Source: Acidimicrobiia bacterium (GTDB lineage: Bacteria > Actinomycetota > Acidimicrobiia > Spongiisociales > ZC4RG35). From it: a DNA stretch of 33,732 bases. Location: assembly GCA_012270885.1 (NCBI GenBank), contig JAAXHN010000028.1:1-33732 (forward strand), read 5' to 3'. Positions 1,110 through 2,194 of the stretch are shown here, in pieces; positions within the stretch are counted from its first letter, which is position 1, and every line of letters starts with the position of its first letter. Under the pieces are notes generated by a model. The model made no database searches and was not told the origin of the DNA. It saw only the letters and a program-made list of their open reading frames with translations. Position numbers and translations under genes: made by a program.

Positions 1110-1715
1110 TTGATGCCTAACAACACTAAGGAATTGGAGAGCCTGGTAACCAAGGCTCAAGAGGCAACCCGCAACCTCGAAAGCGCGGAACTGCGCAAAG
1201 TTGCCTTCGAGCAGGTGCTCGATCACCTTCTGGCAAACTACGGGCATGAGGCAGTAGCCGACCCCAATCTTAAGGTCTCTCCCGGGAGACTGGGAACAGA
1301 ATCGGAACCGGCTGACGGCGTATTGGCCAGCGAGCAACAGCGCATAGACGCTTTGGCCCGCTACTTCAAGATCTCCCCTGACGAGGTGCAACACCTTTTC
1401 GACGCAACTGAAGAGCAGCCCAACCTAGTGGTCTCGACGAAACAACTCGCCAGCTCTAAGGCCCAAGCAGCCAGGGAGATAGCGCTACTCGTTACAGGAG
1501 CATTGACGGCGCTCGGTTTAGAGACCACGACGTCCCATGTCAGAGATGTCGCCGATGACTATGGCAAATACGACAATGCGAATTTCATGACAACTCTGAC
1601 AAATATGGTTGAGATTTCCGTCCTGGGTAAACGCAGATCACAGAATCGGATCATACGCATGAAGGTGGCCGGCGTCGAAGCGGCACAAGATCTTGCCACG
1701 AGAATCGTCAATTGA
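1110..1715 (+). CDS. Uncharacterised protein, likely winged-helix-like C-terminal domain, first gene of a TIGR02391-associated pair
   Basis: 201-aa ORF in a lower-GC stretch. The C-terminal half (IALLVTGALTALGLETTTSHVRDVADDYGKYDNANFMTTLTNMVEISVLGKRRSQNRIIRMKVAGVEAAQDLATRI) looks like a wHTH. Its stop overlaps the next gene's start. TTG at 1110 or ATG at 1113 could be the start. Confidence 0.7.
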   Translation: MMPNNTKELESLVTKAQEATRNLESAELRKVAFEQVLDHLLANYGHEAVADPNLKVSPGRLGTESEPADGVLASEQQRIDALARYFKISPDEVQHLFDATEEQPNLVVSTKQLASSKAQAAREIALLVTGALTALGLETTTSHVRDVADDYGKYDNANFMTTLTNMVEISVLGKRRSQNRIIRMKVAGVEAAQDLATRIVN

Positions 1716-2194
1716 AAGGCGTGAATGCCGGGAGGGGCGGGTACAACGGGCCTCCGGCGGACAAGGCTCCCCCGAGACCTACAACGCTCGTGTTATCTCT
1801 CGAGAATCTTCATGCGGAAGTCGGCATCGCCGACCGCCTCTTCAGGGACGGGCACTACGACGACGCAGTGCGAAAAGCATCACAACGGTTCGTCAATCGA
1901 GTACAGGAATTAGCCGATCGTCCAGACCTCGACGGGATCGGTCTGATGAACCACTCCTTTTCGGAGAGCTCCCCCATCCTCGAATTCAGTGCTCGCGAGA
2001 CCGTGATCGAACGTGATGAGCATAACGGCTACAGATTCCTTGCGGTTGGCCTCACCCAAGCACTGCGGAACGTCGTCACGCACCATGACAACTACGGCTT
2101 GGGCCTTTCAACGGCAATGGAGTGGTTGGCATTCATAAGCGCTATGCATCGCCGCCTCGATCAAGCTCAACAAATCACGCAAGCAGCTTCCTGA
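1712..2194 (+). CDS. TIGR02391 / Hypoth_Ymh family protein with HEPN-like RNxxxH motif
   Basis: LHAEVGIADRLFRDGHYDDAVRKASQRFVNRVQELA...LDGIGLMNHSF resembles the TIGR02391 signature. LTQALRNVVTHHD contains R-N-x-x-x-H (nt 2066-2083). Starts with TTG in a TTGA overlap with the upstream gene. Confidence 0.75.
   Translation: MKGVNAGRGGYNGPPADKAPPRPTTLVLSLENLHAEVGIADRLFRDGHYDDAVRKASQRFVNRVQELADRPDLDGIGLMNHSFSESSPILEFSARETVIERDEHNGYRFLAVGLTQALRNVVTHHDNYGLGLSTAMEWLAFISAMHRRLDQAQQITQAAS

Follow-up and report, generated by a model that had tools for sequence, protein, structure and literature searches.

A two-gene cassette pairing a solo Ymh/HEPN protein with an undescribed partner family in Acidimicrobiia

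The stretch of DNA analyzed here, 33,732 nucleotides long and referred to as the window, carries a two-gene cassette in which a gene for a member of an undescribed family (protein A) directly precedes a gene for a solo protein of the Ymh family (protein B). The A family is the new element of this finding; the assignment of Ymh to the HEPN superfamily is already in the literature (PMC3710099) and is not new. With moderate confidence, we interpret the pair as a mobile, translationally coupled effector/regulator module of the abortive-infection type, in which B would be the RNase effector and A the partner that restrains it or acts as a sensor.

Gene layout and genomic context

All window features described here lie on the forward strand. 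Gene A occupies positions 1113 to 1715 and encodes 200 amino acids, with a TGA stop at 1713 to 1715 and a start that is likelier the ATG at 1113 than the TTG at 1110. Gene B (1712 to 2194, 160 amino acids) starts with TTG at 1712, a GTG at 1721 being a possible alternative. The four bases TTGA at 1712 to 1715 thus hold both the start of B and the stop of A, an overlap that suggests translational coupling; in all 11 loci with complete junctions, the two genes overlap by 4 to 8 bases or abut directly. The original prediction had described two such open reading frames between housekeeping genes, and this description holds, with both frames found in place. On the left lies the C-terminal part of gcvP, encoding glycine dehydrogenase (8 to 961, stop at 961), and on the right a gamma-carbonic-anhydrase-like gene (2329 to 2760), both outside the cassette. 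The intervening upstream region (962 to 1112) is the presumed promoter. No inverted repeat of at least 7 bp, and hence no operator-like palindrome, was found upstream of A in the window or in most homologues, by a search that could miss an imperfect or direct-repeat operator.

Both A and B are genuine genes rather than chance open reading frames, because B matches known families, A has homologues, the junction is conserved, and dN/dS is low. In the two pairs for which dN/dS could be estimated without saturation, it was 0.15 to 0.21 for A and 0.10 to 0.20 for B, values indicative of purifying selection on both genes. The downstream carbonic-anhydrase-like gene has a peculiarity of its own between positions 2245 and 2330, where ATC stands in place of the ATG start of its relatives (gcatcgatcgtg versus catggaccgtg), so that the listed frame begins later, at the GTG at 2329. 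The change is either a genuine loss of the start or a sequence error.

The cassette is the window's lowest-GC stretch of 1.08 kb, at 55.5% against a mean of 63.7% (standard deviation, 2.3). Of five congeneric relatives searched, four have an empty site at which gcvP adjoins the carbonic-anhydrase-like gene across short intergenic sequence of up to approximately 285 bp, and in the fifth (G237, locus L012) this site holds the cassette. The flanks of the empty sites are 84 to 89% identical, and the gcvP flank is 92 to 94% identical to that of the congeneric genomes without the cassette. The lowest GC content combined with the empty site of these four relatives implies that the cassette is mobile or readily lost, and horizontal acquisition of the pair is the best explanation. 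No tRNA genes were found within the window, and no transposase gene was seen beside the cassette. The host is a marine-type bacterium, in which the cassette sits between ordinary metabolic genes. Elsewhere the pair adjoins different genes, mostly housekeeping genes rather than defense islands. Two loci lie near defense-type genes, one near DarTG (L017) and one near MzaB-like and SspD-like genes (L022).

Protein B and its relation to known systems

Protein B was predicted from the outset to be a TIGR02391/Ymh protein with an RNxxxH motif, and profile searches bear this out. B scores well above the curated cutoffs of both PF09509 (E value of 8.9e-22; 77.6 bits against 25) and TIGR02391 (3e-16; 59.6 bits against 39.45), with the PF09509 domain at positions 1826 to 2158 (residues 39 to 149), a region that is helical in the structural model. 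The motif of the HEPN Rx4-6H type, R119-N-V-V-T-H124, lies at positions 2066 to 2083. All 12 paired homologues have R119, N120, and H124, in keeping with the conservation that had been expected for R119 and H124. Of the wider Ymh matches, 22 of 25 retain RNxxxH, and two of the three without it aligned only over a part ending before the motif. One Ymh-family protein (L041, 1465 to 2160) lacks the R-N of the motif (ESPKRH) and is possibly inactive.

The assignment of Ymh to the HEPN superfamily dates from 2013; the family has a predicted active site that is conserved, and was described both as solo forms and as fusions to pMORC, AbiJ-NTD1, and AbiTii, in restriction-modification or Abi contexts and in restriction-modification operons (PMC3710099). 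An AlphaFold2 model of B (pLDDT of 75.5, pTM of 0.67; one of five models was good) is all-helical, with helices across the core. In a Foldseek search of the PDB, HEPN entries were among its highest-probability matches (1wwp was the most probable at 0.75, followed by 2q00 and 2hsb at 0.57 each, and also 1wol), all with E values of at least 0.5; the HEPN toxin 7ae8 was also among the weak matches. A profile search against solved structures gave no significant match to B. The helical model and the identity of its leading matches are compatible with the expected HEPN fold, but because the fold matches are weak, the HEPN identity of B rests more on family, motif, and published assignment. By profile score and motif B is a Ymh family member, and it is most likely a HEPN RNase.

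The sole experimentally tested Ymh relative that we found belongs to PD-lambda-3, an Escherichia coli antiphage system recovered by functional selection (PMC9519451) and described as abortive infection (PMC13190303), for which PD-(D/E)XK is listed (PMC10952713). On plasmid NZ_ON934556.1, PADLOC places PD-Lambda-3_A directly upstream of the Ymh protein PD-Lambda-3_B. The two systems share an arrangement in which a small upstream gene is followed by a Ymh-HEPN gene whose product has a C-terminal HEPN domain with RNxxxH, and the HEPN parts of B and PD-Lambda-3_B are homologous (hhalign E value of 3e-14). However, B matches the PADLOC profile of PD-Lambda-3_B (6.9e-14) only over profile positions 141 to 268 of 270 and lacks the additional N-terminal region of approximately 140 residues, and the upstream protein of PD-lambda-3, at 159 amino acids, is not detectably related to A, which has neither a PADLOC match nor BLASTP similarity to PD-Lambda-3_A. 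We therefore rejected membership of the cassette in PD-lambda-3, which is barely credible despite the shared gene order and the profile match. B also differs from most Ymh proteins of the class, which are approximately 230 to 360 amino acids long with an added N-terminal part, in being a solo HEPN domain whose partner is encoded by a separate gene.

Protein A, its pairing with B, and its remote relatives

Protein A matched no Pfam or NCBIfam family and nothing significant in PADLOC, and neither a profile search against solved structures nor a search of a viral fold library gave a significant match. Its homologues in other genomes are 47 to 61% identical. An AlphaFold2 model of A (pLDDT of 78; mostly above 90 for residues 74 to 200) divides the protein encoded at 1113 to 1715 into an N-terminal pair of helices (residues 5 to 41), a flexible, disordered, and variable linker (approximately 43 to 72), and a confident C-terminal domain (74 to 200). 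Residues 116 to 199 (positions 1458 to 1709) are winged-helix-like by Foldseek, in which PDB matches to the C-terminal part were mostly winged helix-turn-helix (wHTH) proteins (2qvo at 0.97, 2pg4 at 0.94, and many of the MarR and PadR types), with E values of at least 0.34. A had been proposed to be wHTH-like; the predicted structure agrees and is the only basis for this proposal, its matches being weak. The C-terminal half of A thus resembles winged-helix proteins at the level of the model. In an alignment of 11 homologues of 47 to 60% identity, the predicted wing holds a cluster of conserved residues (G172, S176, N178, R179, and R182). The protein is acidic overall (pI of 5.3).

Eight of the 396 class genomes searched, the window's own included, contain homologues of A, and in seven of these eight A is followed directly by B. 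An independent search for B in 386 class genomes recovered seven close B genes (at least 55% identity), all directly after A in those same seven genomes, so that none of the close B genes stood without A; the next-best match was only 35% identical and lay within a longer protein. These counts answer to the conserved association with the upstream gene that had been anticipated. Further loci came from GTDB genomes, bringing the set to 13 distinct genomes with a close A, 12 of which also have B, including two Chloroflexota (L020 and L022). A was not found in plasmids or phages, and B was not found in phages. The divergence of A is correlated with that of B (r = 0.83; Mantel P = 1e-4), a pattern that shared descent alone could yield. 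Judged from gene order and sequence across these genomes, A and B are shown to be co-inherited.

One locus (L018, in the same genome as L008) has an intact A and no B, with only a short unrelated frame after an overlapping ATGA start. Such an orphan A, a single case, would be expected if B were the dangerous member of the pair and A the safe one. Upstream of it (L008, 45 to 1413, also in L018), a small protein is encoded in tandem copies; its start is membrane-like, and it has long coiled-coil-like repeats (EENGRRI/AENGRGI).

More remote relatives of A precede other proteins. In a genome of the same phylum (L010), an A of approximately 30% identity is followed by a 286-amino-acid protein (642 to 1499) with a wHTH-like start that matches no named family. 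By eye, the domain after the wHTH-like start resembles TIR-like or nucleotide-binding effectors, a likeness that no family match to this partner backs. In two loci from a Chloroflexota sample (L070 and L071), the protein encoded downstream of A bears an I-R-N-(N/K)-R-x3-H motif and a wHTH-like C-terminal end. L071 has a second A-like gene between the two (hhalign E value of 5e-8); in L070 a stop interrupts the gene in the middle. The L071 operon (L073, 4297 to 6300) thus reads A, second A-like gene, and then the I-R-N-K-R-x3-H protein with its wHTH-like end; none of its proteins matched a Pfam or PADLOC family. Homology of the partner in L070 and L071 to Ymh was considered and rejected, none being detectable, and the partner looks HEPN-like by motif alone. 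An origin of A by splitting from the N terminus of fused Ymh proteins was likewise rejected, as the wHTH-like N terminus in L053 has no similarity to A. A also has no similarity to the wHTH of the L010 partner.

These remote loci suggest that A has more than one kind of effector as its partner. More tentatively, and with somewhat less than even confidence, A may represent an unnamed family of sensors or regulators, built of an N-terminal helix pair, a linker, a small domain, and a winged helix, that serves interchangeable effectors in an uncatalogued modular defense or toxin system. The effectors would be Ymh-HEPN in Acidimicrobiia and two Chloroflexota, the R-N...H protein in L070 and L071, and the wHTH protein in L010.

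Proposed mechanism, alternatives, and significance

In the mechanism we propose, A would be made first from the common mRNA and would use its N-terminal helices or linker to bind B and keep it inactive, while the winged-helix half of A would bind nucleic acid belonging either to the cassette's own promoter or to an invader. A stress such as infection could then upset A and release B, which as an endoRNase with the usual HEPN chemistry would arrest or kill the cell, so that the infected cell stops growing. The RNase activity and toxicity of B, its neutralization by A, and the role in phage defense are all inferred. In favor of such a module we count the Ymh/HEPN family, the invariant R119, N120, and H124, the PD-Lambda-3_B match and the abortive infection of PD-lambda-3, the lack of a close B without A, the orphan A, the coupling, the correlated divergence, the low GC, the empty sites, the two loci near defense-type genes, and the two remote A loci with R-N...H proteins. 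Against it stand the housekeeping surroundings of most cassettes, the lack of an upstream palindrome, the acidity of A, and the E values above 0.3 for the fold matches of both models. The asymmetry between A and B also rests on one orphan A, and shared descent may be all that lies behind the correlated divergence.

The nearest rival uses the same parts. A classical type II toxin-antitoxin pair, with A as an autoregulating antitoxin and B as an RNase toxin, would be kept by addiction or selfish mobility rather than for phage defense. It would account for the antitoxin-first order and stop/start overlap, the scattered presence in 8 of 396 genomes, the occurrence of an orphan A and no orphan close B, and insertion among housekeeping genes; a conserved and coupled two-gene pair, as in type II systems, is what was found (seven of seven B, seven of eight A, with overlaps). 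Like HEPN-MNT toxin-antitoxin pairs, the cassette couples a HEPN protein to a partner gene, but A matches no nucleotidyltransferase family, and the structural model of A is closer to wHTH than to MNT. We hold the classical type II explanation to be rather unlikely, as the palindromic operator was not found and as defense fits better both with the mostly fused N-terminal domains of Ymh relatives (PMC3710099) and with the pairing of Ymh with a nuclease-like protein in PD-lambda-3.

A regulatory switch is more improbable still. Here A would regulate by binding DNA or RNA, and B would be an accessory HEPN protein that lacks RNase action. Such a switch would accommodate both the loss of catalysis in some HEPN families and the conserved residues in the wing-like stretch of A (S176, N178, R179, and R182). 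However, the catalytic-type residues are invariant in paired B proteins and nearly so in the wider Ymh family, and a core regulator would hardly be so patchily distributed, present at a site in some genomes and missing from it in others. The original prediction had itself named outcomes that would count against it, namely a predicted structure without a HEPN fold, loss of R119 or H124 among homologues, and no conserved association with the upstream gene. None of the three occurred, and its interpretation as an RNase effector with an upstream partner is partly supported.

HEPN RNases are common effectors, and the question that each of them raises is what keeps it silent. This problem takes its simplest form in a solo Ymh protein whose compact partner has a gene of its own, the whole comprising two short genes. 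If A also governs other effectors, the A family would be a marker for unlisted defense modules in Acidimicrobiia and Chloroflexota.
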